A stretch of DNA of 64,000 bases from Isoetes taiwanensis (taxonomy: Eukaryota > Streptophyta > Lycopodiopsida > Isoetales > Isoetaceae), in NCBI GenBank assembly GCA_021234155.1, contig JAJEKV010000013.1, positions 14,051,877 to 14,115,876 on the forward strand. The letters are read 5' to 3'. Made by a program: the position numbers and the translations under genes. This document shows positions 15,524-60,960 of this stretch, piece by piece. Each line of letters opens with the position of its first letter. Positions within the stretch are counted from its first letter, which is position 1. The notes under the pieces are model-generated. The model saw nothing but the letters and a program-made list of their open reading frames with translations. It did no database searches and was not told the origin of the DNA.

Positions 15524-22529
<7,006 letters not shown>

Positions 22530-22559
<30 letters not shown>

Positions 22560-31738: not shown

Positions 31739-34021
31739 ATGTGCCACTTCCCACAGCCACCAGCTATGGAGGAAGCCGGAGAAGAGGATAGCCATAGCCA
31801 ATCCGCACCAAGTATCCTCCATTTTCTACCCATTTCTAGTCTCCGAGCCGCTGCATCTCCCCCCCCATCTCGACCAGCCCCTCCTTCAGACATGGGCGAC
31901 GAACTCTGTGACTTGATGCAGGCAATTAGGGTTAAATTTTTGCGACTTGTGTACAGGCTCGGCGAATCGGCTCATACAGGTGTGGTTGCTCAGGTTTTGT
32001 ATCGTTTAGAATTGGCAGAACAGCTTAGGGTCGGACAAACAGGAGGACATGCAGGAGTTAGTCGATCTGGAGGTTTTATGAAGGCCAACGCCTTGGCTAT
32101 GGAGCAGGAAGCAGAATCAGGTGAATTAGATTTTACTTGTACAATGATGCTCATTGGAAAAACTGGTGTTGGAAAGAGTTCTACTGTGAATAGTTTGTTT
32201 GATGAGAAGGATAGAGCTCCTACTAGTTCTTTTGAAAAGGCTACCAGAAAGGTACAGTTATTTGAAGGTGTTGTTAAGGGGACTAAATTAAGAATTATTG
32301 ATACGCCTGGGTTGTCAGGATCTCTGGCAGATCGGAAGGAAAATGAGAAGACTTTGAGAGGCATAAAGAGATTTGTTCGGCGTTATCGACCAGATATTGT
32401 GCTTTATTTTGACAGGTTAGATATGCAGGGTAGAGACCTAGGGGACCTGCATTTGCTCAATTCAATTACCAATATCCTTGGATCTGCAGTTTGGTTTAAT
32501 ATGATTGTTGTATTGACTCATGCTGCTTCAGCTCCTCCTGATGGTCCAGATGGTGTACCTCTTAGTTATGAGATGGCAGTTGAGCATCATTCCCATATTA
32601 TTCAGCAAATGATTAGGCAGGCTGCAATGGATACAAGGTTGTTGAATCCAGTCTTAATGGTTGAGAATCATTCTGACTGCAACACTAATAGGGCAGGGGA
32701 GAGAATGTTGCCCAATGGACAGGTATGGAGGCCTCAGTTGCTACTGCTGTGCTTTGCATCCAAGATCCTAACAGAAGCCAATGCACTGCTTAAGTTGAAG
32801 GATAATACACTCGGTAGGCCTGCTGATAGAAGAGGTAGAGTACCTACGTTGCCATTGTTGCTTTCTTCTATTCTCCAGCCCAGATCATTGTTAAAAAATT
32901 CTGAAGAAGATACAGGAGGCCTGGATGAATTTGATGAAGACCCAGATGATGCAGATAATTCGGATGGAGAAGCAGATTATGATGAGCTGCCACCATTTCG
33001 TAGATTGTCTAGAGACGAATTGAACCAATTGGATAGGAGAAACAGGACTTTGTATTTTGAGGAGCTTGCATTGAGAGAGAAACTTTTCCAAAGGAAGCAA
33101 TGGAAACAAGAGCTAAGAAGGCGAAAAGAAAGAAGGAAAAACATATCAGGGAAGACTGATGATGAAGTTAAGGAAAATGAACATGGTGAAGAGGATAACA
33201 ACCCAATACCAATGGCATTTCCTGACAACTCTATACCACCAACATTTGGTTCAGATGACCCATCTTATAGATATCGTTATCTGGAATCTAAAAGTCACTT
33301 GGTGGTACGGCCAGTTTTGGGAAACCAGGGATGGGACCATGACAGCGGATATGATGGTGTCAATGTAGAGGCATTACTTGTGTTTAGAAAAAAGTATCCA
33401 GGATCTCTGATGGGGCAGATCATAAAAGACAAGCAAGATTCAAACGTGCGCCTGGAGTGCTCAACATCTTTGGCACATAAAGATGGAAAAACTACAATTG
33501 CAGGTCTTGACATGCAGACAGTTGGAACCGAGCCTTCTTATACATTAAGGACAGAAACCAGATTTTACAATTCAGGATGGAATAAGGCTGTTGCTGGTTT
33601 AGCCATGTCCATCTTAGGAGGGAAAATTGCTGCAGGTATGAAGCTGGAGGATAGGGTGCTCATAGGAAAGAGACTTAAACTCCTGGTTAATGCCGGGGCC
33701 ACTTCAGATGGTGGAGATATCGCATATGGTGGTTCTCTTGAGGCCACCTTGAAGGATAGAGATTATCCAATTAATCAAGTTTGTCATACAGCTGGATTGT
33801 CAATTATGAATTGGCATGGAGATATGTCAATTGGTGCAAACCTTCAATCTCAGTTTGTCCTTGCAAGGACATTGACCACGGTTCATGCTAACTTAAACAA
33901 TCAAGGAGCTGGGCAGATAAGCATAAAGGCTTCTAGTTCTGAACAGTTGTACATGGCCTTCATTGGCATCATTCCTTTCGTGAACTCTTTTCTGAACTGG
34001 CTATCAAGTCAAGGAAAATAA
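31739..34021 (+). CDS. Toc159-family chloroplast outer-envelope import receptor GTPase
   Basis: A receptor GTPase of the TOC complex that recognises transit peptides at the chloroplast surface (family knowledge). It is a 760-residue single open frame. There is a short N-terminal region (about 1-130) instead of the long acidic A domain of Toc159, as in the Toc90 type. The GTPase domain follows: P-loop GKTGVGKSS at 140-148, DTPGL at 188-192, THAASAPP from 260, and a VENH G5-like motif. An acidic linker (about 385-420) precedes the membrane domain, which starts with LPPFRRLSRDELNQL and a basic coiled stretch (KQWKQELRRRKERRK) and is predicted beta-rich to the C terminus. I chose the first ATG; a second in-frame ATG 27 bases later is an alternative. 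It is intact, has no intron, and is very likely functional. Confidence 0.95.
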   Translation: MCHFPQPPAMEEAGEEDSHSQSAPSILHFLPISSLRAAASPPPSRPAPPSDMGDELCDLMQAIRVKFLRLVYRLGESAHTGVVAQVLYRLELAEQLRVGQTGGHAGVSRSGGFMKANALAMEQEAESGELDFTCTMMLIGKTGVGKSSTVNSLFDEKDRAPTSSFEKATRKVQLFEGVVKGTKLRIIDTPGLSGSLADRKENEKTLRGIKRFVRRYRPDIVLYFDRLDMQGRDLGDLHLLNSITNILGSAVWFNMIVVLTHAASAPPDGPDGVPLSYEMAVEHHSHIIQQMIRQAAMDTRLLNPVLMVENHSDCNTNRAGERMLPNGQVWRPQLLLLCFASKILTEANALLKLKDNTLGRPADRRGRVPTLPLLLSSILQPRSLLKNSEEDTGGLDEFDEDPDDADNSDGEADYDELPPFRRLSRDELNQLDRRNRTLYFEELALREKLFQRKQWKQELRRRKERRKNISGKTDDEVKENEHGEEDNNPIPMAFPDNSIPPTFGSDDPSYRYRYLESKSHLVVRPVLGNQGWDHDSGYDGVNVEALLVFRKKYPGSLMGQIIKDKQDSNVRLECSTSLAHKDGKTTIAGLDMQTVGTEPSYTLRTETRFYNSGWNKAVAGLAMSILGGKIAAGMKLEDRVLIGKRLKLLVNAGATSDGGDIAYGGSLEATLKDRDYPINQVCHTAGLSIMNWHGDMSIGANLQSQFVLARTLTTVHANLNNQGAGQISIKASSSEQLYMAFIGIIPFVNSFLNWLSSQGK

Positions 34022-42644: not shown

Positions 42645-42649
42645 CATTT
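42645..42649. repeat. Target site duplication CATTT (left)
   Basis: Identical to 55954-55958 right of the 3' LTR. Confidence 0.93.
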
Positions 42650-44329
42650 TGTGACGTTCCACGTATTTATACGGTATACGTAACGTATTTATATGGTAAT
42701 TATACGGTATACCTATAAATGTACTGACACGTCACCCGATAAAGGTACGCCATCATGGGGTATTGTAACATAGGGGGTTGACCTAGAAGGGATTAAATTA
42801 GCTATGCTAATTTAATCATTAAGGATAATAACCTAGGGATTAATATTAAATGGGTTAATTAGACCAATAAATGCTTTGGGAAGGCGCCACCTGGCCTAAT
42901 TCGATTGGCCAGCATGGGGATTTCCAAATTGGGCTGTCAACCTGATCCCTATTGCTAATTGACTCCCAAAATTCGTCCAAGAAGGAGCAGGAGCTGAGCG
43001 CCTACCCCTGTCACGCTGAGCGCCACCAGACCAAGTACTTTTTACCTGTGTAGCTGAAGTTGAACACCAAGATCAAGAAGATGGAGATCCCCAACGACAA
43101 TGGATCGAAACAAACACAGGTGGGTGGCTAGTGTAGTTGTGAATTCTAGGATAAGCCCTGTTGGGTTTTTTGTTTGGGTTGTGGTCTATTCTCTCTTTGT
43201 GTTTACTCGTAGGAACTAACCCTTGATTGTAAAGGTAGGTTCTCTCTATATATTTCGATCGGGTTCTCGCTTGTAATGGATGGATTGGTGGTTGTTAGCC
43301 TAGTGTTACTCTGGAAATGGGGAATTAAGGGGGTAGAGACCTCGAGGCTATTTATTGTAGTATGCTCCTAGATAGAGCCCCCTGTATTATCCCGTCATAT
43401 ATGCGGCTGTGCACAAGAGCCCACCGGTCATAGATGCTATGGTAACCGGCTTAGCACCGGACAAGGAACACAAGTGGTGAAGTGGAGGTGGGGTCTTGCA
43501 CGAACATAAAAGGCTCCTGGGACTCCTATAGCGAGCTAGGGCGATAGCCGGTCCACGAGGAGGGCGGGTATGGGTCCGACACTCCCCAGGTGGGAAGGTG
43601 TGACCCGTATGGGGCACCTTGCACTTTGAGTAGATTTAGGGCGCAGTAAGCCTGCATGCGGATGCGGGGTCGCTGATGCGTGCGCGTATTCTCTAGCTTC
43701 GCCCATGGAGCCTTTGTGATTCTCGAAGGGGACGCCTTCCCGACCTGCCTCATCGGACCAGAGGCTTCATGAACCCGGAGTAGGCTCAGCGAGGATGATG
43801 CCTCGAGCCTGCGTCTCCGAGGAAGGCTATAGCGGCGCCATAGCGTGAATTGAGCCATCCGCAAAGTGTGCATGGGAGGGGCGGATGGAGTGGACAACCC
43901 TAGCCAATGTTCTATGCCCCAAGCGCCATGTCAAGATTAAATGTCGCTGATCTCTTGAGGCCCGGCCGTCGGTCGATCCTCACCGGAGTGCGGACGGGGT
44001 AGAACCATGGGTTTGGGGTGTTTTCTTAGGTTTAGATGCATATTCTTTGCCGTTGGTATTTGGATGGATATGCCACCCTTCGTGGTGGTTATTTATATGT
44101 GATTTATCTTTTGTGTGCTAACCCTTGTATTCACGCTTCCCATGACGTAGGAGCCCCATTGAAGGCGTGGGCGAATGACCCCTTCGTGTCCTTCTTTTCG
44201 GGCATCATTATTATAGATGGCCCGAAATAGACGGAGGGAGCCCCGCCATGGCGAAGTTGGTCGCCATGGGAGGGGAAAGTCCCGTATGTATACGTCCGGA
44301 GGGTCGATATGTTCGGGTGGAGCGCCACG
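42650..44329 (+). repeat. 5' LTR (1680 bp)
   Basis: Begins TGTGACGTTCC; its 3' end CGCCACG is a mutated form of the CGTCACA that ends the 3' LTR. TATA-like CTATATAT lies at 43256-43263. It differs from the 3' LTR by many short indels and scattered substitutions, mostly in GC-rich places. Confidence 0.93.
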
Positions 44330-44330
44330 C

Positions 44331-44345
44331 TGGTATCGAGCATGG
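44331..44345 (+). other. Primer-binding site (initiator tRNA-Met, one base deleted)
   Basis: TGGTATCGAGCATGG starts one base after the LTR and matches the usual initiator tRNA-Met complement apart from a missing A and a small difference downstream. Confidence 0.8.
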
Positions 44346-44490
44346 TTCTGGGAAGCCAAACTATTGCACTGGCCACATACTAACTCGATAGATCGTTAGC
44401 TAGAGAGTGAGGATTTTTGAGTAGTATGAGATTTGGGGTGGAGTATTAGATGTCGTCATGATTGCTTTAACGTGGTTTAAGAGTAAATAA

Positions 44491-44500
44491 GAGGTGAGTA
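44491..44500 (+). other. Candidate major 5' splice site
   Basis: GAG|GTGAGTA matches the plant donor consensus, with GT at 44494-44495. It lies between the primer-binding site and the first ORF, the place where retroviruses keep their major donor. Its use is inferred. Confidence 0.55.
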
Positions 44501-44899
44501 CCCGGTACCAAACCCTAACCCTAAGTGGCGGGCAGGGGGTACCCGGGTGTCATTTGGCGCAGAGAGAAACCTCGGGGTAGGGGTGCCCGCCAAAAAAAAA
44601 AAAAAAAAAAACCCTAAGTGGCGGGGCGGGCTGGGGTACCGGGCCACTGGCGCCAAATGGGCGACGTCGAGGTAGGGGGTGCCCGCCACCTCGAAAAGCG
44701 CGCTCCGCCACTTTTTCATAAAAAGTTTTTTTAGGGTTAAAATTTTAAAAGTGACTTTTTCTTTCACTTTTCTAGAATACCTAGCGCCCTTTTGAGCTCC
44801 GCCTAGCCGCCATAGCCGCCGGAACTAGAAGGAGGCCTCCGCCATAGCCAAACCTCGGCCTTCACCTTCTTCCCCCAAGCGCCTGCCCAGCGGCCGCCT

Positions 44900-44916
44900 A
44901 GCGCCTACCTTTCAAG
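44900..44916 (+). other. Candidate 3' splice site before ORF1
   Basis: CTACCTTTCAAG ends one base before the ORF1 start codon (ATG 44918), downstream of a C/T-rich stretch. Confidence 0.4.
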
Positions 44917-44917
44917 G

Positions 44918-45730
44918 ATGGAGACACCCAAGCAAGTCTATAAGCGCAAACCTCGTCATTCTCAAACCCCTATAGAGTTCTTAATGGCTGAGCTGATGCC
45001 ACAACAAAACCCAGCGCCAGACGCAGAAGCAAAAACTGAAGAAATACTAGAATATTTCGTGAAGCGCTTCTACGAAGGGGTCAGAATACCATACCCGCTC
45101 TTTTGCTACAATGAGCGTTTTGTATTTAAGCTCAACGCCATTCGGGAGACCTGCATGGTAGTTGAACAGGAAGATGGCGTCCAGAAGTATGCCCGGTTCT
45201 TCCCGCCAGCAGGGGATGAACAAGCTGAGGAGGAGGCCCTACAAACGCAGGCCCAAAACAGTTTGCAAATGGCCCAAGAGGCGGACCTACAGTGGCTAGC
45301 ATTGGATGATCCGGCTTCAGGATACCGCTACCTGGGAAACGGCATGTGCCTCTTTGATGGGGGAGCCTACACTCTCCCATCGTTTTCATATGAAGAGGAG
45401 ACCAACCGTATCCTCTGGGAAGCAGGATCACCCTCGTATTTCACAGATCACTTTCAGCGGGCTGTTGAACGAGACATGCAAGCTAATCCTCCACGTTACT
45501 TCATAGAGCTTACAAGAAGAACAGAGATTAGAATAGCTAAAGAGAAGCAAGCAGAGGAGCAAGCCACACCGGGCAAGAAGTACGTAAGGCAAACACAGCT
45601 TGATCTGAGGAGGCCGCCAAGCTTCGGAGGATACTATTCATCAAAGAAATGTAGAACAAGAGCAAAATCAAGAGAATGCGGACGGCAAGAGGAAAGAGCA
45701 AGAGAGGCAACCGGGCCGGAAGGAGCCTAA
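44918..45730 (+). CDS. ORF1 of the histone-bearing element: unknown domain upstream of H3
   Basis: A 270-residue open frame from a good ATG. The N terminus is basic (METPKQVYKRKPRHSQTP), followed by a mixed globular-looking part containing EEILEYFVKRFYEGVRIPYP, an acidic Gln/Glu-rich stretch around residues 105-130, an aromatic region (GYRYLGNGMCLFDGGAYTLP), and a basic C-terminal tail. I recognise no family. The same frame continues, across two TAA codons at 45728 and 45779, into the histone H3 domain. ORF1 and H3 may therefore have been one protein of about 450 residues, comparable in size to the next ORF. Confidence 0.7.
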   Translation: METPKQVYKRKPRHSQTPIEFLMAELMPQQNPAPDAEAKTEEILEYFVKRFYEGVRIPYPLFCYNERFVFKLNAIRETCMVVEQEDGVQKYARFFPPAGDEQAEEEALQTQAQNSLQMAQEADLQWLALDDPASGYRYLGNGMCLFDGGAYTLPSFSYEEETNRILWEAGSPSYFTDHFQRAVERDMQANPPRYFIELTRRTEIRIAKEKQAEEQATPGKKYVRQTQLDLRRPPSFGGYYSSKKCRTRAKSRECGRQEERAREATGPEGA

Positions 45731-45781
45731 TCGAGGAAGGAAGAGGAAGAAAGGCATCGGCAAGAGCAACCACCGCAGTAA

Positions 45782-46270
45782 GTCCGTGTTCCCGCCCAAG
45801 ACAAAAAGAAGACACCCCAAAGATCTGGTGTTCAGTATAAGGATCAGCTTAGGGCTCGAGGAGGAATCGCTAAGGCTGCAAGGGATAACCGGCGGGACAA
45901 CATCATCCGTAAAGCCCGGCATCCTGGAACAGCAGGGAAGACTCTACCCGGAGCTGCACCCCAACCTAGGAGGAGGCATCGTTACAAGCCTGGTACCGTG
46001 GCACTTCGAGAGATAAGGAAGTACCAGAAATCCACTGAGTTTCTGTTACGAAAACTTCCTTTCCAGCGTCTGGTCCGAGAGATTGCCCAAGAATTTAAGA
46101 CGGACCTTCGTTTTCAAACTCATGCCATTCTAGCACTACAGGAGGCGGCCGAGGCTTACTTGGTGGCCCTCTTTGGCGATGCAAACCTATGTGCCATCCA
46201 TGCCAAGCGAGTAACCATCATGACAAAAGACCTACAGTTAGCACGCCGGATCCGTGGGGAACGGTCATAA
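45782..46270 (+). CDS. Histone H3-like domain inside the retrotransposon
   Basis: A 162-codon frame with no ATG of its own before the fold. From residue 66 it follows canonical H3 without gaps: [62 protein letters not shown] and [10 protein letters not shown]. By hand I count about 15 differences from plant H3 over roughly 95 fold residues. The H3-H3' and H3-H4 contact residues Cys110, His113, Arg116 and Asp123 (H3 numbering) are kept; Pro121 is Thr. The loop lengths are those of H3, not centromeric CENH3. The tail (residues 1-65) is Lys/Arg-rich but lacks the ARTKQ start and the K4/K9/K27 contexts. Expression would need readthrough of, or splicing around, the upstream TAA codons. The family call is secure; function in the element is unknown. 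Confidence 0.95.
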
Positions 46271-46541
46271 TTATGTACATCACAATTTTGTATCTATGTA
46301 AATCGGTATATATAATAATACAAAACTGTTTTGACTTCTTATTTTGAATTGTGAATTTTCCTACAATTAAAAAATAAATAAATAAATAAAATAAAAATAA
46401 TAATAACTGAAAAAAAAAAAAGAGATGATGAGCTGGCGCCTCGAACGCCGTGCCCAGCAAGTTAAATACTCAGATTCATTTTTAGGGTTTCATCATTTCT
46501 TACTCCTGTTTCCTTCTTCCTCCCATCTTCCGCCTGCAGTG
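46271..46541 (+). other. Spacer between H3 and the H4/H2A ORF, with AT-rich tract, A12 and acceptor
   Basis: Very AT-rich with overlapping AATAAA words at 46374-46395 and a run of 12 A at 46410-46421, resembling the end of a polyadenylated message. Then comes a long C/T-rich tract ending CGCCTGCAG (AG at 46538-46539), a strong acceptor-like sequence two bases before the next ATG. Confidence 0.6.
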
Positions 46542-47951
46542 ATGGACTACGCTGGCCGACTAGCATGGTACATGGGAGGCGAGCAATGGGATCCCCAGGT
46601 TCCTTACCCTCTCTTGGATCCTATGTTGCAGAGTTCAGTCGACCTCATCGACAATATGCGCGCCCACCCTGACTATGCGACCTTTGTAGAGTTCTATGAT
46701 GAGGAAATATTGCCTGAAGCGGAATTCTTTGGGGAACCGCCCCAACCTTATCTTCACAGAGATATTGTGGAGCATATGTTGGGAGATGATCGCCACAGCT
46801 ATGACATCCTCAAGGGCATCATCAGACGTGCTAAGCACGCTCCCATTATCGATTGTGGCTCTAATGGGCTATACTTTGAAGCCCAGTTTGCCCTTGCTCT
46901 TATTATGGACAGGTATGTTGATGGTACTGACACCGCTTTAGAGCAAGCTAAGGCCCCACTTCCTCCAGATCCAGAGGAGGACGAGCAGATAAACTTTGCT
47001 GATTTTGAACGATGGAAGGAGTTAGCTAAAGAGAGGCCTTTACCTCGTAGTAAGGGCCAAGCACTTGTGGGATTGAGTTCGCTTGCTACCATCAAGGTTG
47101 GGGATCAAGATTACTTGCTGCTGAGCGACATTCAATGGGCGTATCAGCATATCGCCAATAAGGGTAAGCAGAGGACCGCTCACCTTCTTTATGAGCTGGC
47201 CGAATATTGTCAGGGTCAGCATGATTTCATTGATTACTCTCGCCCCAATTATGCGCCAGAGATACATCAACTGCTCAACTATCAACCCCTTGATGTTGAG
47301 CCTATCAGCACACTCTTGTCCTTGCGCCAGTTAATGATTCAGGGTACCCCATCTTCAGTTCCTGAATCGGCTTTCCAGGCTACGGGGCCACATGTGCCCA
47401 ACATCAACGACGTCGTCGTCAAGCTGGAGGACGACCCAACCATGGAGGATTTATGTGATGAGAGTCAGTATGCTCAGGAGGAGAAGGATTTTGCCATGGA
47501 GGAGGAGCTGCCCCGGAACTTGGAGTCCGAGTTGGCCTCTTCAACCCATCCGATGGTTCAGGGGTTGAAATGCCATATTACTCGATTCTTCCTGTCGGCT
47601 TTTACAAGCAGACAGGTTCTCTTCTTTGCTAAGGCAATTGCCCCTGAAGCAGAGGCGGCTGTATGGGCATTAAGGGCACTTTCCACCACAGCCGGCCACA
47701 AGAAGTTAGCTCCTAACCTTGAGCAGATCATCCTAGTGAACCGTGATCTTGCCATTGCAGTGTTTGACCATGAGATTGGTTCTTGGATGAACATGAGTCT
47801 GCTGGTTGCGGCGCCATTGGCTACAAATGTTCCTCCAGAAATAGCTTCATCAGCTGCCTCATCAGTTAATCCTAGCGTGTTACTCCTACAGCATCGACCA
47901 GAGCCCCAGTTTGATACTCAAGCACAAGATGTTGACGGATCGACCTCTTAG
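46542..47951 (+). CDS. Histone H4-like/H2A-like fusion protein
   Basis: A 469-residue intact frame. Residues 88-137 align without gaps to the first two helices of H4 (12 identities of 50 by hand), including IRR at 94-96, Y111, E113 and the T/E/A spacing of TALEQAK. After an insertion of about 55 residues, SDIQWAY at 195-201 matches H4 helix 3 (MDVVYAL). Residues 341-430 match H2A: GL, then APEAEAAV at 367-374 for H2A's APVYLAAV, and NRDLAIAVFDHEI at 400-412 for PRHIQLAVRNDEEL (11 identities of 49 from residue 365). The 1-80 and 210-335 regions are unassigned and acidic. I chose ATG 46542 rather than 46425 because the acceptor-like CTGCAG lies directly before it. Most DNA-contact arginines and the H2A acidic patch are not conserved, so it may not form ordinary nucleosomes. 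Profile searches are needed to confirm. Confidence 0.65.
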   Translation: MDYAGRLAWYMGGEQWDPQVPYPLLDPMLQSSVDLIDNMRAHPDYATFVEFYDEEILPEAEFFGEPPQPYLHRDIVEHMLGDDRHSYDILKGIIRRAKHAPIIDCGSNGLYFEAQFALALIMDRYVDGTDTALEQAKAPLPPDPEEDEQINFADFERWKELAKERPLPRSKGQALVGLSSLATIKVGDQDYLLLSDIQWAYQHIANKGKQRTAHLLYELAEYCQGQHDFIDYSRPNYAPEIHQLLNYQPLDVEPISTLLSLRQLMIQGTPSSVPESAFQATGPHVPNINDVVVKLEDDPTMEDLCDESQYAQEEKDFAMEEELPRNLESELASSTHPMVQGLKCHITRFFLSAFTSRQVLFFAKAIAPEAEAAVWALRALSTTAGHKKLAPNLEQIILVNRDLAIAVFDHEIGSWMNMSLLVAAPLATNVPPEIASSAASSVNPSVLLLQHRPEPQFDTQAQDVDGSTS

Positions 47952-48198
47952 TTTTAGGTTTCATTGGGTCATCGTATGAAATTTTGTTAATTTTGATTGG
48001 CATTACCTCTAGTGGGCCAACACCAAAATCTATGTACTGTTTTCAATTTTATATATATTCAGGATATCTTCTTATGTTTCTTGCACTGTTGAAAACCATT
48101 GAATTGTTTTCTCCTTTCAATGCTTAATTATCTTCCTTAAAGTTCGAGTGGAAGGAAATTGTTTCAATGTATATATAATTATTCCTGTCGTCTTGCAG
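47952..48198 (+). other. Spacer with acceptor before the H2B-like ORF
   Basis: AT-rich non-coding sequence ending in TTCCTGTCGTCTTGCAG (AG at 48197-48198), a good plant 3' splice site. No donor is obvious inside this spacer, which favours splicing from an upstream donor. Confidence 0.55.
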
Positions 48199-48245
48199 AA
48201 GAAACACTTGAGGAATACCAGGACAGGATCACCGATCTGATAAGA

Positions 48246-48659
48246 ATGGATGAACAGGGACCTTCTGAACAGGACTATGGGGAACGATACAACGAGTATC
48301 CTGAACGGGAAGTTGACGATGACATAGCGGAGCTTAGGGTGCCGGAACAACCTTATGATCCTGACAAGGGCATGGAAGCAGTTACTCTTCTTCGAGAACG
48401 TGCTTACGATGATCTGAAATGGACTCTTTCCCGTACTTGGGATTATTGGAATATGACCCCACATCAAGCTTTTGATGATGCTAATGATCATCTCTGGCAA
48501 ATCTTCTACGCACTGCGAAGGCTCTTCAACCTTCTGATTATTAGCCCCACTTGGGATTATCAACCCGTTATTATCCAGGCTTGGGCACGTTACAAGCTCG
48601 TCAGAGCTGTGCGTGAGAGTGTGCGCTATGCCGTCATGTATCCCTACGCAAACCCTTAA
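48246..48659 (+). CDS. Histone H2B-like protein
   Basis: A 137-residue frame starting at the first ATG after the acceptor at 48198; its length is like that of H2B. The N-terminal 45 residues are acidic, unlike the basic H2B tail. From residue 53 it aligns to H2B without gaps through helix 2: AY at 53-54, MTPHQAFDDANDHLWQIFYAL at 70-90 against H2B's [20 protein letters not shown] pattern (shared A, N, IF, L), then IIQAWAR at 109-115 for the EIQTAVR of helix 3, and AVRESVRYAV at 121-130 for the AVSEGTKAV of the C-terminal helix. Identity is low, so the call rests on position and pattern and on its place next to H3, H4-like and H2A-like sequences. Confidence 0.55.
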   Translation: MDEQGPSEQDYGERYNEYPEREVDDDIAELRVPEQPYDPDKGMEAVTLLRERAYDDLKWTLSRTWDYWNMTPHQAFDDANDHLWQIFYALRRLFNLLIISPTWDYQPVIIQAWARYKLVRAVRESVRYAVMYPYANP

Positions 48660-48910
48660 GCCGCAATTTCCAGTTTTGTGTGTTCCTATGCTTCACTATG
48701 GCTAGGAAATGGCTTGTATCAGGCCTCTTTATGTATTATATAACTATAAGTTTATAACTGTGTTCCATATGAACTTCTTTGATGTAACCGTTATCTCGCT
48801 TGTAATTTGAATCTTCCGTCCTTTTTCGTGTTCACTTGTGTTTCTTGATACTACTCAAAATGACTTTGTTATAACACTTACTGTTATCGTACTCTTTCTT
48901 ATATCATCGT
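48660..48910 (+). other. Spacer between H2B-like ORF and gag
   Basis: AT-rich, non-coding. A pyrimidine-rich stretch with TAATATAG at 48917-48923 lies just inside the gag frame and could be another acceptor. Confidence 0.4.
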
Positions 48911-49681
48911 ATGTTTAATATAGACGGTGCACGCAATGCCGCCTGGCAGACACCCTCAAACGCCAGTCGGTTAACACCCGAACAAGAATTGATGCTGATG
49001 AAAAGACAGTTAGGCGAATTACAGGCCTACGTCTTGCATGCTAACCCACCACAGCATGTACAACAGGATGCACCGGAGTTACCTCCGTTGCCGCCTAGTC
49101 CACCTACACAGCAGCCGTCCCCAACACGAACCAGTCCTGTACCCGTGCGAAAGAGGTCCCACTCTAAACGCCGACGGAGCTCCTCTAGAGACAGTGCCAC
49201 CTCCTCAAAGTCTGCCACTTCAGTGTCATCTGAATCATCCGCATCATCTGGTGGCCATGCAAAGCGCCGAGATAAGGAGTACCGCAAGACAGTTGATACA
49301 ACCATAACTAGTATATGGAAGAATAGGAAATTGGCCCAGTTTGATGGGAAATCTAGAGGCGGCTTGAATGCCGAATCCTGGCTGGACGAAATGAAGGAGT
49401 TCGGCAGGTCCTATGGCATGACAGAGAAGGATACAGGAAAGGTTGCCACCACAAACCTTACCGGAGCTGCCCGTATTTGGTGGAAGGGCTATGCCAGAGC
49501 CAAACATCTGGACAGGAGTAGATGCAACTTCAGAAAGTTTGCCAAGGCCTTCAAATCGCATTATGTGCCTCGTGCACATAAATGCCAGCAGATCCAGACT
49601 TTCTACAGGTTGGAGCAGAAGAGTATGTCCGCATGTGCTTACACGGATGAGTTTATACCGAGACCGTATGTACCGGTATGA
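48911..49681 (+). CDS. gag of the histone-bearing element (N-terminal part)
   Basis: A 256-residue frame. A Pro-rich then Ser/Arg-rich region (KRRRSSSRDS at about 75-85) precedes the conserved Ty3 capsid-type domain, with FDGKSRGGLNAESWLDEM, AARIWWKGY and NFRKFAKAFKSHYVP. It is cut short by a frameshift near 49660; remains of the rest follow, with a degenerate zinc knuckle (CYMCMRPDTSCENC, about 50037-50080). Confidence 0.85.
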   Translation: MFNIDGARNAAWQTPSNASRLTPEQELMLMKRQLGELQAYVLHANPPQHVQQDAPELPPLPPSPPTQQPSPTRTSPVPVRKRSHSKRRRSSSRDSATSSKSATSVSSESSASSGGHAKRRDKEYRKTVDTTITSIWKNRKLAQFDGKSRGGLNAESWLDEMKEFGRSYGMTEKDTGKVATTNLTGAARIWWKGYARAKHLDRSRCNFRKFAKAFKSHYVPRAHKCQQIQTFYRLEQKSMSACAYTDEFIPRPYVPV

Positions 49682-50224
49682 ATGAGAAAAGGGCGTGGAG
49701 GGCTATATTGAGGGTTTGGCACCATCGATCAAACGGATGGTTAAGGCCATCGACCAAATCGGGATAGTGCGGCCGAGGCTAAAGCATTGAGCCTCGAGGA
49801 GGACATACCAAGGAATCAAGATCCGCCCCGCTCCTTACTCGCAGACCACGGCCGCCCACACCTTACAAACCCCGCTCTCCAAGTCAGGGGCCCTCTTAGC
49901 GTAACTCTTCACGGCCGCCGTGAGAAGAAAGTCGCTTTTAGCACGCCGGATAAGCGAGCAATTTGGTAAGGAAGTTCAAACCCTCTTGCAGTCCATTCCT
50001 AAAGAGGCCGAAGAGAACACCGCTAGGGATAAGGCATGTTACATGTGTATGAGGCCGGACACTTCATGCGAGAATTGCCCATATGTTACCCGTGACGCCC
50101 GGTGGCCATGGCCGACCTTTGGCGGGATGATATTGAGTCAACATTACTGGCCGACGAGGACGCCCCGAAGTACATTCACGGTCGCGCCTCATATCCTTGC
50201 AGCTATAGAAACCGGCAATCTTTG

Positions 50225-51585
50225 AAAGTCAGCCTGCTGTCATTTCCACCATAGGCCAAATAGACAGTAAGCCTTTTGTAATTCTTATGGATACGGGGAG
50301 TACACATAATTTTGCTTCTCCTAGAATGGCCCAGGTCCTATAACTGGAAACCCTAAGGTCACGACCGAGACCTGTCACTTTAGCCAGTGGTAAGGTTAGA
50401 CATACTCATGGTCGTCGCATCAACCTTAAGATGCAGTTGCCAGGCGCACCAGTTGCTATGGGTGCCGAGTTAATGGATATTGGCAAATACGACCTCATTG
50501 TTGGAATGGAATTCTTGGCATCTGCAAAAGCCAACATAGACTGCGAGAAGAGAGAAGTTACCTTCAACGCAGCTAATGGAGCCCGTGTAACTATAAAAGG
50601 TGAACCATTCAACCCTATCATGCAGTCTATGTCCATTCGACAGTTAGATAAAGCTATACGCAAGCAAAAGCTCTTCTGCGTTATTCGACTTGCTTCCATT
50701 GAGTCAGATGCTAAGCAAAACCAAGTAATCAACGCCTTGCCACAGGGGATTGCCAGTATTCTCCATGAATTTAGCGATCTTTTCCCAGACGAGATCCAGA
50801 AGCTTCCTCCTTTTAGAGGGGTAGAATGTGAGATAGCTTTAGAGCCAGGCACTAAGCCTACCAGCAAGGCCCCGTACCGGATGAGTCCCCCAGAGTTGGC
50901 AGAGCTTAAGAAGCAACTTCAAGAGCTGCTAAACCTAGGTTTTATTCGACCTAGCGTTTAGCCCTTTGGCTCCCCTATTCTTTTGTAAAGAAAAAAGGGC
51001 GGCTCCTTGATAATGTGTATTGATTATCGGCAACTCAACAAGCATACCATCAAAAATCGCTATGCTTTGCCGAGAGCAGATGATCTAATGGATCAGTTGC
51101 AAGGGGCCAAATATTTTTCAAAGATTGACCTTCGCTCGGGATATCATCAGATAAGGATTAAAGAGGAGGACATCCATAAATCTGCTTTTCGCACTAGATA
51201 TGGGCATTATGAGTTTACCGTTATGCCTTTCGGATTAACTAATGCCCCATAGCGTTTATGCGGTTAATGAGCGGTGTTTTCCGACAATACTTGGATGATT
51301 TTGTTGTCATTTTCTTTGGACGACATTCTCATCTACAGTAAGACTCTAGAAGAGCATGAGAAACATCTTAAATTGGCCCTACAAAAGTTAAGACGTCATC
51401 AGCTTTTTGCCAAGTTCTCTAAGTGCAAGTTTGCCACTCCAAAGGTTGACTATTTGGGCCATATCATTTCTGCAGAGGGAATTGCTACAGATCCAGCAAA
51501 AATAGAGGCCGTAAGGGAATGGCCTATTCCAGAAAATGTCTCCGAGGTCCGAAGTTTCTTGGGGCTAGGGGATACTACCTAAAAT
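50225..51585 (+). pseudogene. Protease and reverse transcriptase of the histone-bearing element, broken
   Basis: Protease active site DTGS at 50290-50301; the IGKYDLIVGMEFL motif at about 50475-50520. RT blocks: QLLNLGF-type start, [20 protein letters not shown] at 51013-51072, [23 protein letters not shown] at 51220-51250, [14 protein letters not shown] at 51316-51360. Interruptions include a stop near 50340, stops near 50961 and 51252, and a shift near 51290. The YxDD-type box is damaged. Confidence 0.9.
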
Positions 51586-51639
51586 TTGTGAAGGATTTTG
51601 CAAAGATTGCAGTCCCTCTTACAAATCGACCAAGCATGA

Positions 51640-52130
51640 GAAGGTAAAGGATTGGATGGAGCACTGGAAGACTAAGGTTCAGGGAAGTTTCCAGCAGCTT
51701 AAAGATGCCTTAACCTCAGCACCCGTTCTCACGTTGCCCGATCCTGATAAGGATAAACTAGTGGCCACAGATGCAAGTAAAATCGCCACTGGTGGGGTTC
51801 TAATGCAGGAGGGGAGGGTTATTGCTTATGATTCAAAGAAGATGAACGAGACGGAACAGCGATATCCTACCCATGATCAGGAGTTGTTAGCTGTTGTTCG
51901 CGCCTTGCGAATATGGAGACACTACCTCCTTGGTAAAAGATTCCAATTGGACACGGATCACCAAAGTCTCCGTTATTTATCCACCCAACCGAACCTCAAC
52001 CTCCGTCAGAGGAGATGGATGGAATGTCTTGAAGAATATGATTTTGACATCATGTATAAGCCTGGAAAGCACAATGTGGTTGCGGATGCATTGTCACGCC
52101 ACCCCCAGAAACCGAACCCATTGTAATGCA
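51640..52130 (+). pseudogene. RNase H of the histone-bearing element
   Basis: VATDASKIATGGVLMQ, TEQRYPTHDQELLAVVRAL, TDHQSLRYL and the closing GKHNVVADALSRHP are in one frame (51656-52126). It is connected to RT by a frameshift near 51580-51650. Confidence 0.9.
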
Positions 52131-53000
52131 ATTTCTACACTCACAAGTGAGTTTGGGAAACAGATAGAACAGACCTTGGCCACGGATCCCGAGTTCTGTG
52201 AAATCTGGGCTAGTTTGAGTAAGGAAGCACGCACAGATAAAGAACGCGAAGCTTTCCGTTCATATAAGAAAGAGGGCAATTTGTTGTATCACAAGGATAA
52301 GTTGTGTGTACCTCGACCTCCGGGTGCGAAAAGTTAATCCTCCATGACACGCACAACAGCCCTATAGCTGGACATGCGGGTTTTATGAAGACCTATTTTA
52401 AAATCCGCTCTAGTTACTTTTGGCCTTCCATGAAGAAGGATATTGCTAGATACATTAAGCAGTGTCAAGTGTGTCAGCAAACCAAGGCGGAGCAACTAAG
52501 AGTTCCAGGAGAGCTGCAGCCTTTGGATGTGCCCCATAAAATGGGAAGTAATAACCATGGATTTCATTGTGGGCCTTCCACCGAACTCTCCGTGGCTATG
52601 ATGCACTAATGGTGGTCGCCGACAAATTATAAAAAATGGCTCACTTCTTGCCATGTCGCATTAACCGCAAACCGCCTTCGACACCGCCTTGCTTTTCGCA
52701 AAGGAGATCTTCAGGTTGCACGGAATGCCACGGGTTATTGTATCTGACAGGGATCCCAAATTTGTAAGTGCATTCTGGAAGGATTTCTTCACCACCATCC
52801 AGACCAAGCTTGCTATGAGTACCGCATATCATCCTCAGACAGATGGTCAGACAGAGCGTACCAACCGTATCATAGAGGATATGCTACTTAAGCTAATATG
52901 TGTGGAGTAAGCAATCCCAATGGGGGTGACTATATTTATCTAGTAGAGTTTGCCTATAACAAAAGATGAAACGAGGAGTCTTCCAGGATGTCTCCTTTCA
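52094..53000 (+). pseudogene. Integrase of the histone-bearing element, broken
   Basis: Zinc-binding region HDTHNSPIAGHAGF and CQVCQQTKAEQ at 52340-52500; then frames are lost across the first catalytic Asp (52550-52690). The later core is readable (IFRLHGMPRVIVSDRDPKF, HPQTDGQTERTNR) at 52700-52870, and a stop follows at 52910. Confidence 0.88.
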
Positions 53001-53695
53001 TGATAAATTATGGTTATCAATGCCTTACTCCTGACACATGGCACAACCCCGTGTCGAAAGTGGAGGTTTCTCAACAACTCCTCCTGGAGATGCAAGCTTT
53101 GGTCGACGAGGTACGTGGTTACTTGCTAGCTGCACGCAGTCGTCAAAAGAGTGTAGCAGATAAGCACAGGACCCCACGAGTCTTCCAGGTGGGTGAATCG
53201 GTTTGGCTTAAGATTAAAGTAAAACAAGCCAAGCTTAAGATTGGTAATTGCAAAAAGTTGGCACCCAGATGGGCTGGACCGTTCAAAATCACGGAACGTA
53301 TTGGGGAGCAAGCATATTGCCTGGACTTGCCACCCCGCTTAAAGATCCACAAGGTTTTTCATGTGAGTCTTCTAAAGCAGCACACCCCTGATCCAGAGGA
53401 GGTTTTGGAAACCCCAACCCTCCTGGAAATGACAGAGGAGCAGCTAGAGATAGTACCTGAAGCTCTTCTTGATCGAGCTTATAAACAGACCAGGAGGACT
53501 CAAATGCTGCAATACTTAGTCAAGTGGAAACACTTGCCAGTGGAGGATGCTACGTGGGTGATGCAAACAGATCTTGAGAAGCACTACCCGGATTTCATGC
53601 GCGAATCTCAAGGCCGCACCATCAACGATGCTATCAACCCCGCTCCCGGCGGTAAGCTTGAAGACTTGATTCGCCGAGAATCAGTAGAGGGGTAG
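52988..53695 (+). CDS. Integrase C terminus and chromodomain of the histone-bearing element
   Basis: A 235-residue frame covering the end of integrase (KLAPRWAGPFKI, VFHVSLLKQH) and a chromodomain (QYLVKWKHLPVEDATW followed by LEKHYPDF). Chromodomains in chromoviruses bind modified histone tails and bias integration (family knowledge), which is notable in an element that also encodes histones. Confidence 0.9.
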   Translation: MSPFMINYGYQCLTPDTWHNPVSKVEVSQQLLLEMQALVDEVRGYLLAARSRQKSVADKHRTPRVFQVGESVWLKIKVKQAKLKIGNCKKLAPRWAGPFKITERIGEQAYCLDLPPRLKIHKVFHVSLLKQHTPDPEEVLETPTLLEMTEEQLEIVPEALLDRAYKQTRRTQMLQYLVKWKHLPVEDATWVMQTDLEKHYPDFMRESQGRTINDAINPAPGGKLEDLIRRESVEG

Positions 53696-54266
53696 ATGCA
53701 TCGTAGTTAACAACAGTTACCGATGATGGGATCACCTTCGTGTTCCTTAGGACGTGGTGTACTGTCAATGTGGACACGACCACGAACTGCTTGTAAAGCA
53801 TGAACTTCCTTACGCCGCAATGAATTGCGAATCATAGGCATAATAGGTTCCTTGTAGATAAATTTTCTTTCATTTCTTCTAGGGGGTGGACCCTTCAACC
53901 ACAACCTAATTATTTTTATTTGTGAAAACTGATATATTGACATGTGCAGGCCAGTGAGCAGTACGTGACCTGCCCATGTATAGAGGGTTGCTGATGACCC
54001 GACTTTTCGGATTCGCTTGTTTTACATGTCTTATTTTCGTCGTCTATGATGTTTTAAAATCAGACTCCGTCCTTGAACTTCGTCTGTTGATAAGTTTGTA
54101 AAATGCACCTTGGTGCTGACACTTTGTTATTCTCAACTTCAATGCATTACTGTTTGAAATAATAAGTTATCTTCCTTTCTTAACTATATTCTTCCTAATT
54201 CAGTTTTTTTGTAGGTAACTGTCTCTGATTAATTAACCCCAATGCTGAGGACAGCATTATTTTTTT
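53696..54266 (+). other. 3' untranslated region of the element
   Basis: No coding potential seen between the end of pol and the polypurine tract. Confidence 0.5.
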
Positions 54267-54279
54267 AAGGAGGGGAGAA
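54267..54279 (+). other. Polypurine tract
   Basis: AAGGAGGGGAGAA directly before the 3' LTR. Confidence 0.85.
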
Positions 54280-55953
54280 TGTGACGTTCCACGTATTTAT
54301 ACAGTATACGTAACGTATTTATATGGTAATTATACGGTATACCTATAAATGTACTGACACGTCACCCGATAAAGGTACGCCATCATGGGGTATTGTAACA
54401 TTGGGGGTTGACCTAGAAGGGATTAAATTAGCTATGCTAATTTAATCATTAAGGATAATAACCTATAATCTAGGGATTAATATTAAATGGGTTAATTAGA
54501 CCAATAAATGCTTTGGGAAGGCCACACCGGCCTAATTGATTGGCCATGATGGGGATTTCCAAATTGGAACATCCACACGATCCCTATTGCTAATTGACTC
54601 CCAAAATTCGTCCAAGAAGGAGCAGGAGCTGGCCCTACCCATCACCCGTGCGCCACCGGACCAAGTACTTTTTAATTGTAGGTAGCTGAAGTTGAACACC
54701 AAGATCAAGAAGATGGAGATCCCCAGCGACAATGGATCGAAAAAACAAGTGGGTAGCTAGTGTAGTTGTGAATTCTAGGATAAGCGCCCCTGTTGGGCAC
54801 CTGTTTGGGTTGTGGTCTATTCTCTCTTTGTGTTTACTCGTAGGAACTAACCCTTGATTGTAAAGGTAGGTTCTCTATATATTTCGATTCGGGTTACGCT
54901 TTGTAATGGATGGATTGGTGGTTGTTAGCCTAGTGTTACTCTGGAAATGGGGAATTAAGGGGGGGTAGAGACCTCTGAGGCTATTTATTGTAGTATGCTC
55001 CTAGATAGAGCCCTGTATTATCCCGTCATATGCGGCCTGTGCACAAGAGCCCACCGGGTCATAGATGCTATAACGGCTTAGCACCGCACAAGGAACACAA
55101 GTGGTGAAGTGGAGGTCGGGTCTTGCCACGAACATAAAAGGCTCCTGGGACTACTATAGCGAGCTAGACCTGATAGCCGGTCACGTAGAGGGCCGGGTAT
55201 GGGTCTGACACTCCCTGGGTGGGAAGGTGTGACCCGTATGGGGCACCTTGCACTTTGAGTAGATTTAGGGCGCAGTAAGATGCACGGATGCGGGGTCGCT
55301 GATGCGGCCGTGCGTATTCTCTAGCTCTCGCCCATGGAGCCCTTTGATGATTACGGAAGGGGACGCTTCCACCTGCCTCATCGGACGGGGGCTTCATGAA
55401 CCCCCGGAGTAGGCTCAGCCGGGGTGATGCCTCGAGCCTGCGTCTCGGGAAGGCTATAGCGGCGCCATAGCGTGAATTGAGCCATCCGCAAAGTGTGCAC
55501 GGGGGGAGGGGCGGATGGAGTGGACAACCCTAGCCAATGTTCTATGCCGCCAACGCCATGTCAAGATTCTCGTCTGCTGATCTCTTGAGGCCCAGTAGTC
55601 GGTCGATCCTCACCGAGTCCGGATAGGGGGTAGAACCATGGGTTTGGGGTGTTTTCTTAGGTTTAGATGCATATTCTTTGCCGTTGGTATTTGGATGGAT
55701 ATGCCACCCTTCGTGGTGGTTATTTATATGTGATTTATGCTGTGTGCTAACCCTTGTATTCACGCTTCCGCGACGTAGGAGCCCCATTGAAGGCGTGGGC
55801 CGAATGACCCCTTCGTGTCCTTCTTTCGGGCATCGTATTATAGATGGCCCGAAATAGACGGAGGGCCCTGCTCATGGCGCGTTGGTCGCCATGGGAGGGG
55901 AAAGTCCCCGTATGTATACGTCCGAGGGTCGTATATGTTCAGGGAGCGTCACA
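54280..55953 (+). repeat. 3' LTR (1674 bp)
   Basis: TGTGACG at the left and CGTCACA at the right are a perfect 7-bp inverted terminal pair. It is followed by CATTT (55954-55958). Confidence 0.95.
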
Positions 55954-55958
55954 CATTT

Positions 55959-58651: not shown

Positions 58652-60960
58652 ATTCTCACCTTGTAAAAATCAACTCATGTCCTCATGAGTTATGGGAAAG
58701 GTCGGATATAACTTCTTGAACTTGTCAGCGTCTTCCCATGTCGCATCCTCTTGCGGATATTGGACTAGGTATTTCTCTATGGTGCGATTCCTCAGTACCC
58801 TAGTATCAACTCGCAAAATTGCTTGTGGCTTTATTGCGAGTGTCTCTTCTACTGCAACCAAATTATCCTGAGGCAATATATGTGATGGATCACTGAGATA
58901 CTTGCGTAAGTTGCTAACATGGAATACATTATGGACCTTGATGTCAATAGGCAATTCCAAACGGTATGCAGCCTTGCCGATCCTCTGTATGATTCTAAAA
59001 GGACCTGCATATCTAGGTGCTAGTTTGCCAGCCTTCTTAAACTTCAATGTACCCTGCTTAGGGTTAATCTTCAGGAACACCATATCATTCTCCTGGAATT
59101 CTAAAGGTCTTCTCTGTTTATCTGCATACTCCTTTTGTCGGTTCTGCGCTTTGGCAATATTTTATCTAATAATTCGGAGCTGTGTCCCAATATCCTCTCC
59201 CATGGTCTGGACCAAATCAATTTTACACTGCGGACTACACCAAGTCAAGGGATATCAGCATTCTTGCCCATATACTGCTTCAAATGGGCTCATCTTTATG
59301 GAATCTTGATACGTATTGTTGTAGGCAAACTCAACTAAATGCAGATAAGATTCCCGAGTGTGCGGATGTTCAGGAACATACATCCGGAGCATGTCCTCGA
59401 CAACCTGCTTAACTCTTTCAACTTGACCATTGGTTTGAGGATGATAGGCTGTACTCATCCGTAATTGGGTTCCAACCCCGTGGAATAATGCTTGCCAAAA
59501 CTAGCCAACAAAGCGCGTGTCTCGGTCTGACACAATAACCTTAGGCATACCATGCAGACGGAATATATCCTTGATAAAAATCTTAGCAATATCTGCAGCA
59601 GTAGCCGTGATTTTGGTTGGCATAAAGTGGGCTTGCTTGGTGAGACGATCCGTTACTACATAGATGGAATCATATCCTGCTCGTGTCTTGGGCAATCCCA
59701 CAATAAAATCCATACCTATACTTTCCCATTTTGTGTCAGGAATATCCAATGGTTGCAATTCCCCTGGAACCTTTTGGTGAGAGGCTTTCACCTTCTGGCA
59801 TGGTAAACATCTGGTTACATAGCTTAAGATTTCCTTCTTCATGCTAGTCCAAAAGAACTGCTTACGGACCTTACGAAGAGTTTTCTAAACTCCTGGATGA
59901 CCCGATACTGGACTATCATGAGCTTCTTTCATAATCTGTTGTTTAAGCTCGGCATTATCTGGTATGCACAACCGATTGTGGTAGAATAACTTGGATGCTT
60001 CAATCTTATAGGGATTCTTGTTTTCTCCTTGCTCAAGTGCTGCTACTATAGGCTGAAAATACGGATCCTCCCGGATCAACTTCGTGAGATTGCTGTCCCA
60101 TTGCGTATTAGCAACACTAACGGCGGCACAGTATGATCGTCGGGACAACGCATCTGCAATTACGTTATCTTTCCCGGGCTGGTACATTATGGTGAGATCA
60201 TACTCCTGTAGTAGTTGCATCCATCGTTTCTGGCGATTATTTAGCTGAGGCTGCGTTAGGAAATACTTAAGACTCTGATGATCAGTCTTGAGGAGAAATC
60301 TTCTACCCAAAAGGTAATGCCTCCATAATTTTAAAGCATGCACACGTGGGTTAGGTAATTCCGTTCAGCTGGATTAAGTTTCTTTGATGCATACGCACAC
60401 ACATGGCCATCTTGTAATAAAGCACATCCAATCCCAGTGCCTGAGGCGTCAGTTACCACACAAAAGTCCCGCTCCATAGATAGAATCTTTAAAATGGGTG
60501 CATGCGTCAGGGCATCTTTTAAGATTTGAAAACTTTGGTCACATACCTCTGACCATTGGAATGCTAACTCTTTTTGAAGTAGGGTGGTCAATGGAGCTGC
60601 TTTCCTGGAAAAATGCTTTACAAACTTGCGATAATATCCAGCTAATCCTATGAATGCCCGGATTTCCCTTACAGATTGAGGTTGCGGCCATTCTTGTATA
60701 GCTTTTACGTTTTCAGGATCCGGCTCAATTCCCTTGTTGGAGACAACATGGCCTAAATAAATCAACTGCTCTTGAGCAAAACTGCATTTGGAAAGCTTAC
60801 CATAAAGCTTATGTTGCCTTAAAAGCTTTAAAACTGAGCGCAAATGTTCAACGTGCTCTTCAAGTGTTTTGGAATAAATCAGAATATCGTCGAAAAAAAC
60901 AAGCACAAATTGGTCAAGATGGGCCCGAAAAATATCATTCATAAGCCTCATAAAAGTAGC
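58652..60960 (-). mobile_element. Ty3/gypsy element fragment, minus strand (RT to 3' end)
   Basis: Minus-strand pol runs from mid-RT (60951, [15 protein letters not shown]) through FDDILIYSK, RNase H ([18 protein letters not shown]), integrase (CLPCQKVKASHQ, MDFIVGLPKT, SDRDTRF, HPQTNGQVERVKQ) to a GPF domain and a chromodomain-like end (EKYLVQYPQEDATWED) at 58690-58790. It has stops or shifts between domains (near 60340, 59870, 59480 and 59160). The element is truncated at 60960, where a plus-strand copy of the same family begins. Confidence 0.92.
59813..60960 (-). repeat. Left arm of 1.15-kb inverted repeat
   Basis: Reverse complement of 62840-63987 with only scattered differences (e.g. 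in the RNase H block about one or two substitutions per 70-80 bases). The spacer is about 1.88 kb and holds gag, protease and the start of RT of the plus-strand copy. Confidence 0.9.

Follow-up and report, generated by a model that had tools for sequence, protein, structure and literature searches.

Can a long terminal repeat (LTR) retrotransposon encode a histone of its own, and how many of the four core histones might it carry? The question is raised by a stretch of 64,000 nucleotides from Isoetes taiwanensis (contig JAJEKV010000013.1, positions 14,051,877 to 14,115,876, C941:14051877-14115876 in our numbering; hereafter the window), in which an initial annotation had placed, between the primer-binding site and gag of a Ty3/gypsy chromovirus at 42650-55953, reading frames for an unmistakable H3, a fusion of an H4-like and an H2A-like protein (open reading frame 3, ORF3) and an H2B-like protein (ORF4). 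We find that the retrotransposon does encode a histone and that its H3 is no chance capture, since it belongs to a family that is multi-copy, fused, old and under selection. The wider claim of all four core histones finds no support in the sequence comparisons reported below.

An H3 fold at the end of the first protein

The identity of the H3 could be confirmed directly, as annotated. The window frame 45998-46270 matches the Pfam Histone family with an E-value of 1.8e-37 (3.4e-43 if read from 45782) and the closest solved structure by sequence is histone H3.3 (E 5.6e-47 among PDB sequences). The fold lies between the primer-binding site and gag. In the window copy no start codon precedes the fold within its frame, which opens after a stop at 45779, and the stop of the preceding frame, ORF1 (44918-45730), stands in the same frame as the H3.

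To place this copy within its family the genome (1,658,258,908 bases in 1110 contigs) was searched for the histone family and 150 of 8705 first-look candidates were scored. Among these 150, 15 matches have a canonical tail (from model position 2) and the other 135 begin at model positions 4-25; at least 36 of the 135 lie in open frames of 400 residues or more, by a hand count in which not every match was inspected. Fourteen fusion copies, selected for long open frames, were fetched (L069-L082), and in all of them ORF1 runs on uninterrupted into the H3 fold to give a protein of 411-464 residues from the first Met; the frame of L073 extends beyond the end of the H3 to the edge of the fetched stretch. 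The uninterrupted fusion in 14 of 14 copies indicates that the native product is an ORF1-H3 fusion, of which the window copy is a broken example, and the element H3 is almost certainly the C-terminal domain of this fusion. What had been annotated as a frame by itself therefore stands as a histone and falls as a stand-alone gene. The N-terminal parts are of three types that are mutually 28-35% identical, one of them found in L082 alone, and across these types the H3 fold is 83-92% identical. Searches of PHROGs and NCBIfam yielded no weighty match; an archaeal histone model of NCBIfam reaches into the H3 part in two fusions, but at a score under the cut-off.

Ratios of nonsynonymous to synonymous distance (dN/dS) were calculated from Nei-Gojobori distances, using pairs with a dS of 0.1-1.5 only. 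The H3 fold had a median of 0.028 (31 of 91 pairs) and the N-terminal part with the linker one of 0.142 (26 of 91 pairs). The element H3s are 85-89% identical to the host copy L001 with synonymous sites saturated (proportion 0.80-1.06). I89 and A107 are found in 15 of 15 element H3s and L124 in 14, the eight host copies all reading V89, T107 and I124, and residues thus common to the element H3s and absent from these host copies suggest one capture. Taken together, the comparison suggests a single old capture of a host H3 followed by long constrained evolution. We also considered a capture through RNA and dropped the idea: intact host H3 copies are uninterrupted as well, which makes the missing introns of the element H3s uninformative.

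The residues that have been kept are telling. R49, K56, R69, R72, K79, R83, C110, H113, A114, K115, R116, T118, D123, L126, R128, R129 and R131 are invariant in all 15 element H3s and R63 is kept in 14. To these residues we assign roles in contacts with DNA, with H4 and between the two H3 molecules; we take R49, R63, R69, R72, R83 and R116 to be DNA contacts and C110, H113, D123, L126 and R129 to form the H3-H3' interface. The chaperone-recognition site at positions 87-90 reads HAIL or FAIL. The tail has fared differently. No canonical H3 tail, with its K4, K9, K27 and K36 contexts, was found in the element H3s, and a host-like tail before the last eight residues that precede the fold did not rise above shuffled sequences in any of the 15 (78-305 of 500 shuffles reach the score). 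The recognisable H3 tail thus appears to be largely lost.

The chromovirus and its conserved accompanying genes

The window element is a Ty3/gypsy chromovirus with the following features.

42645-42649, no strand: left target-site duplication CATTT, matching CATTT at 55954-55958
42650-44328, + strand: 5' LTR, first bases TGTGACG, aligned to the 3' LTR
44331-44349, + strand: primer-binding site, TGGTATCGAGC.., by sequence reading
44492-44499, + strand: possible leader splice donor, AG followed by GTGAGT (at 44494), as read in the window copy
44918-45730, + strand: ORF1, the N-terminal domain and linker of the ORF1-H3 fusion, interrupted at its end in the window copy (fusions uninterrupted in L069-L082)
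45782-46270, + strand: tail-side basic segment and histone H3 fold of the ORF1-H3 fusion, the fold from about 45992, without an in-frame ATG in the window copy (Pfam, PDB sequences)
46508-46541, + strand: pyrimidine tract with CAG, a splice-acceptor-like site ending two bases 5' of the ORF3 ATG
46542-47951, + strand: ORF3, a conserved element protein of 469 residues, annotated as the H4/H2A fusion (genome copies, selection)
48180-48198, + strand: splice-acceptor-like site TTGCAG 5' of ORF4
about 48199-48659, + strand: ORF4, a conserved helical element protein annotated as H2B, possibly a second exon (genome copies, selection; weak AlphaFold2 model)
48911-49681, + strand: gag (Pfam Retrotrans_gag, 6.5e-10)
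50431-50961, + strand: protease (Pfam RVP_2, 1e-05)
50893-52126, + strand: reverse transcriptase and RNase H across three frames (tblastn to another Ty3 pol in the window; RNase H by Pfam, 2e-33; reverse transcriptase named by eye)
52334-52886, + strand: integrase in two frames (tblastn to another Ty3 frame in the window; named by eye)
52988-53695, + strand: C-terminal part of the integrase with an SH3-like domain (Pfam, 1.7e-21) and a chromodomain (Pfam Chromo, 2.2e-09)
54267-54279, + strand: polypurine tract AAGGAGGGGAGAA, adjoining the 3' LTR, by sequence reading
54280-55953, + strand: 3' LTR, by alignment to 55952, the last base by reading
55954-55958, no strand: right target-site duplication CATTT, pairing with the left one

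Alignment of the two LTRs (42650-44328 and 54280-55953) gave 1572 identical bases out of 1629 aligned, with 64 gaps. Alignment and reading agree with the LTR pair and the CATTT duplication that had been annotated, and the Pfam matches to gag, protease, RNase H, SH3-like domain and chromodomain do the same for its class. The order gag, protease, reverse transcriptase-RNase H, integrase is that of Ty3 elements and the chromodomain stands at the C-terminus of the integrase. The primer-binding site is presumably of the initiator-Met tRNA type. Reverse transcriptase, RNase H and integrase fall in more than one frame when set against the other Ty3 elements of the window, which indicates that this copy has decayed.

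Both ORF3 and ORF4 recur throughout the genome. At least 97 matches were found for ORF3 (91 of 7509 candidates scored) and at least 150 for ORF4 (150 of 2789 scored), with a median dN/dS of 0.091 (466 of 666 pairs) and 0.153 (478 of 1035 pairs), respectively. At 30 ORF3 loci, the window's own included, an H3 was present in 26, ORF4 in 27 and gag in 27, and at 30 ORF4 loci 29 had ORF3 (one of them, L063, on the opposite strand) and 29 had gag, the H3 lying outside these latter stretches. ORF3 and ORF4 are real, conserved and syntenic genes in the order ORF1-H3, ORF3, ORF4, gag. The genome search that the initial annotation had proposed thus returned many copies carrying these frames, and a family without them, which it had said would point to the chance capture of an H3 only, is not what we see. 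Beyond this genome, ORF3 has a relative, P0001, that is 42% identical over 96% of its length; a profile search with the two sequences returned P0001 alone, and a scan of viral contigs and prokaryote genome contigs with the same pair gave no relative. A protein search with ORF4 (48246-48656) gave no relative among five candidates.

Acceptor-like sites recur just upstream of both genes. All 27 listed copies of ORF3 have the CAG site two bases 5' of the ATG, and of 46 listed for ORF4, 42 have TTGCAG in front of the gene (a hand count in which a few elements are listed twice); further upstream of both sites the sequence varies by subfamily. The ORF4 copies share no Met before residue 57 of the aligned part and yet the residues that precede it are conserved, suggesting that ORF4 is probably a spliced exon. 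ORF3 and ORF4 may be partner proteins that arise from spliced RNAs.

Two further observations concern these genes. ORF4 is 91-93% identical between elements in which ORF3 is only about 45% identical (L052, L056, L061 and L062 against window 46542-48659), a similarity so far above that of ORF3 that it suggests an exchange of modules between subfamilies. At L064 part of the N-terminal domain of ORF1 lies near ORF4 with no ORF3 match between them; this is probably a deletion derivative.

The remainder of the window holds other elements and frames. Opposed pieces of another Ty3 element lie at 59885-60951 (- strand) and 62477-63811 (+ strand), with pol proteins 95-97% identical, and the long pol frames at 17127-21487 belong to yet another Ty3 element, whose last frame is 41% identical to the integrase-chromodomain part of the H3 element. 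A frame of 760 residues at 31739-34021 resembles what we take to be a plant chloroplast import GTPase of the TOC159 type, and one at 21903-22559 resembles part of what is presumably a class III peroxidase.

Are ORF3 and ORF4 histones?

The initial annotation saw in ORF3 an H4-like and an H2A-like part and in ORF4 an H2B, and hence an element carrying its own nucleosome-like set. Database searches did not find these histones. ORF3 matches no Pfam family and neither protein matches a Pfam histone at E-values up to 10, ORF4 giving matches to domains of unknown function (DUF) only, far below their cut-offs. No histone was matched among PDB sequences with single sequences or profiles of either protein, and a second look at the PDB matches of ORF4 showed helical bundles. 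In shuffle tests the local alignment of ORF3 with H2A was reached by 0.37-0.905 of shuffles (seven copies) and that of ORF4 with H2B by 0.325-0.98 (six copies), whereas the H3 fold finds H4, H2A and H2B at 0-0.06 in the same test. The window copy was likewise at chance for H2A and H2B, and P0001 showed none of the four core histones above chance.

One stretch of ORF3, at about residues 89-137, does resemble helices 1-2 of H4. In the window copy 20 of 500 shuffles reached its score, and in seven ORF3 copies the fraction was 0.005-0.165 of 200 shuffles, a range that overlaps that of true H3 folds against H4. Six of eight related sequences have the stretch at the same place; the alignments of L052 and P0001 fall at other positions, that of P0001 scoring at chance level. 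We regard a single diverged H4-like segment in ORF3 as improbable.

Two other approaches have little bearing either way. Profile comparison by hhalign gave a probability of at most 0.5% for ORF3, ORF4 and the ORF1 N-terminus against histones, and true histone pairs score hardly better (H4-H2A 0.5%, H4-H2B 0.4%, H3-H4 0.9%), so this test has little power. The AlphaFold models are of low confidence (mean predicted local distance difference test score, pLDDT, of 35 for ORF3 and 53 for ORF4) and thus do not settle the fold of either protein; the ORF4 model has three helices of 32, 21 and 31 residues and not the short-long-short arrangement. A separate idea, that ORF3 contains two related hairpin-helix modules, found no support: their profile comparison gave 0.4%, the best other window 2.8%, and Pfam searches with four slices gave no match.

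An element that encodes all four core histones as H3, an H4/H2A fusion and H2B would have precedents, as viruses with fused histone sets exist (available parts of PMC9145170). The H4-like stretch, the helices modelled for ORF4 and the low power of hhalign speak on its side; against it stand the absence of any Pfam or PDB histone match, H2A and H2B alignments at the level of shuffled sequence, the silence of P0001 and, at low confidence, the wrong helix lengths in ORF4. We consider such a set very improbable. The histone fold that had been expected at 46542-47951 and 48246-48659 is thus missing as far as sequence profiles go, and the structural models are too uncertain to add to this. A strongly diverged fold may be hidden in these proteins, most of all in ORF3.

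The H4 and H2A of the host do not resemble the fusion family either. A genome search with H4 gave 43 matches from 69 candidates, all scored, comprising 16 full-length genes at 99-100% and fragments, and one with H2A gave 78 matches from 106 candidates, again all scored, with many of the matches split in two. Both lists are short and their entries gene-length or fragmentary, unlike the large fusion family. Among them, a short H2A-like fragment (48-54% identity over query residues 12-65, with one stop) occurs at seven places (e.g. G000:C1056:28775855, C1026:2608975 and C1054:2773958), as if another repeat carried a piece of H2A. A short H4-like fragment (query residues 36-79, 59-61% identity, in a frame of 59 residues) was found at four places (G000:C1036:275145, C667:942054, C1077:713411 and C1049:2622662).

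A retrotransposon H3 and its possible role in host chromatin

Histones carried by parasites are known from other systems. Some large DNA viruses encode core histones, in part as fused doublets, as the initial annotation had noted in agreement with the available parts of PMC9145170. One close likeness is to DNA viruses with a single captured H3, among them Manila clam xenomavirus, Dishui Lake phycodnavirus and Sylvanvirus: no H4, H2A or H2B accompanies the H3, nor is one detectable in the element, and the viral fold is 73-87% identical to that of a possible host H3; the N-terminal tail is extended or altered in several and the chaperone site is altered, reading SAIL or TAIL in three, close to the HAIL or FAIL of the element, and for the six viral single H3s the formation of nucleosomes with host histones is judged likely (PMC9145170). 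The Isoetes element differs in that its carrier is an LTR retrotransposon and that a conserved region of about 300 residues is joined to the H3, which has been kept while several types diverged in one genome. Marseilleviridae and other giant viruses also have histones encoded by a parasite, but theirs are divergent H4-H3 and H2B-H2A units (available parts of PMC9145170), whereas in the element H3 alone is detectable. Another carrier is a hAT DNA transposon of the fungus Pyrenophora tritici-repentis that multiplies an H3-like gene, H3L, beside an ORF of unknown function; as described in the available part of PMC3538342 it has 26 very similar copies of a stand-alone H3, unlike the old and selected retrotransposon fusion. 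CpBV-H4, a bracovirus H4 that joins host nucleosomes and alters expression via its N-terminal tail, offers a model for a parasite histone, although it is an H4 and belongs to a polydnavirus, not a retrotransposon (available part of PMC5423620). That a plant Ty3/gypsy lineage can fix an extra domain is illustrated by orchid elements with an N6-methyladenosine (m6A) demethylase, a different domain from ours, and the available passages of the same screen of extra Ty3/gypsy domains, in 121 angiosperm genomes, name no histone (PMC9289625). The main text of the 2022 review of viral histones contains no word beginning with 'retro' (PMC9145170), and, judged by title and the opening of the abstract, no listed paper reports a histone gene in an LTR retrotransposon, preprints and most subscription journals lying outside that coverage. 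A parasite-borne H3 is therefore already known from DNA viruses and a fungal hAT; the LTR-retrotransposon carrier and the fused architecture were not found described.

The best overall explanation, which we think fairly probable, is that a chromovirus family captured a host H3 and made it the C-terminal domain of its first protein. The H3 domain would pair with host H4 and be loaded by host H3 chaperones, and the N-terminal region of about 300 residues would thereby be set on nucleosomes or tetrasomes in place of the host tail and its silencing lysines. The likeliest use would be to spare the element's chromatin from silencing or to give element complexes an anchor on chromatin; plant transposons with anti-silencing proteins, the VANCs, do exist (available part of PMC12859917). 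A frozen fold with frozen contact residues, a replaced tail and a looser N-terminal domain are the pattern expected of a variant that is incorporated into nucleosomes with a new domain on the tail side. On these grounds incorporation into chromatin, with anti-silencing or tethering, has in our estimate a little less than an even chance. The complete picture of a parasitic histone variant, one that chaperones would assemble with host H4 into nucleosomes, where the element domain would replace the tail, block K9 and K27 marks and dock element complexes, we offer as a tentative and rather unlikely whole. We infer that losing the tail lysines may have been the purpose of the fusion.

A number of points weigh against this explanation. 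With so long an N-terminal extension nucleosomes might fail to assemble normally. The window copy is broken, with stops between ORF1 and H3 and a pol in several frames, and the fetched fusions were selected for open frames, which biases their count. Synonymous distances between the N-terminal types are saturated, so the dN/dS ratios rest on pairs within types. In the fold, one copy has C at R63 and P121 is T in seven of 15. The tail has left traces: the Pfam alignment starts at model position 5 in L082 and at about 20 in the other fusions, and a profile of 11 fusions begins to align with H3 at about residue 20-27. Finally, a few elements were entered twice in the ORF3 and ORF4 sets, and the only relative outside the genome, P0001 at 42%, is one of ORF3.

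The main rival is that the H3 domain acts as a chaperone or H4 decoy, or binds element cDNA in the particle, and is not built into host nucleosomes. For the viral single H3s, too, it is not clear whether they act on the viral genome or on host chromatin (PMC9145170). Conservation of the surface that faces H4 and the chaperones would suit a decoy, and the long N-terminal domain may hinder nucleosome assembly. Still, the presumed DNA-contact and H3-H3' residues are kept in 15 of 15 copies (R63 in 14), more than a pure decoy would need, and we judge this rival unlikely while taking it seriously. Decayed histone fragments are known to travel in transposable elements, such as the Helentrons of Culex (available part of PMC4067079), and the H3 might by analogy be an inert gene fragment multiplied with its element; a dN/dS of 0.028, synonymous saturation against host L001 and the open fusion frames of the three N-terminal types make this a most improbable account. 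Hardly credible, finally, is the account in which the ORF1-H3 module belongs to a host gene family, or was created by misassembly, beside an unrelated element. The assembly is nanopore-based and polished with Illumina reads, with optical mapping, and was published at 1658.30 Mb in 204 scaffolds and 909 contigs (available part of PMC8566536), and the window copy is interrupted; the H3, however, lies between LTRs flanked by a target duplication and recurs at many sites together with ORF3, ORF4 and gag, their order unchanged.

The capture of a host H3 as the C-terminal domain of a chromovirus protein extends parasite-borne histones from DNA viruses and one DNA transposon to retrotransposons. That such a fusion has been kept for long under selection suggests that the parasite acts on host chromatin from inside. 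If the full picture of a parasitic histone variant were true it would be, to our knowledge, the first case of an LTR retrotransposon rewriting the host nucleosome. ORF3 and ORF4, as two conserved accompanying proteins, are further leads, and the fusion itself provides a natural H3 with a constrained fold and a free tail. Histones are the substrate of transposon silencing, and an H3 of the element's own makes transposon action on silencing at the level of the nucleosome directly testable.

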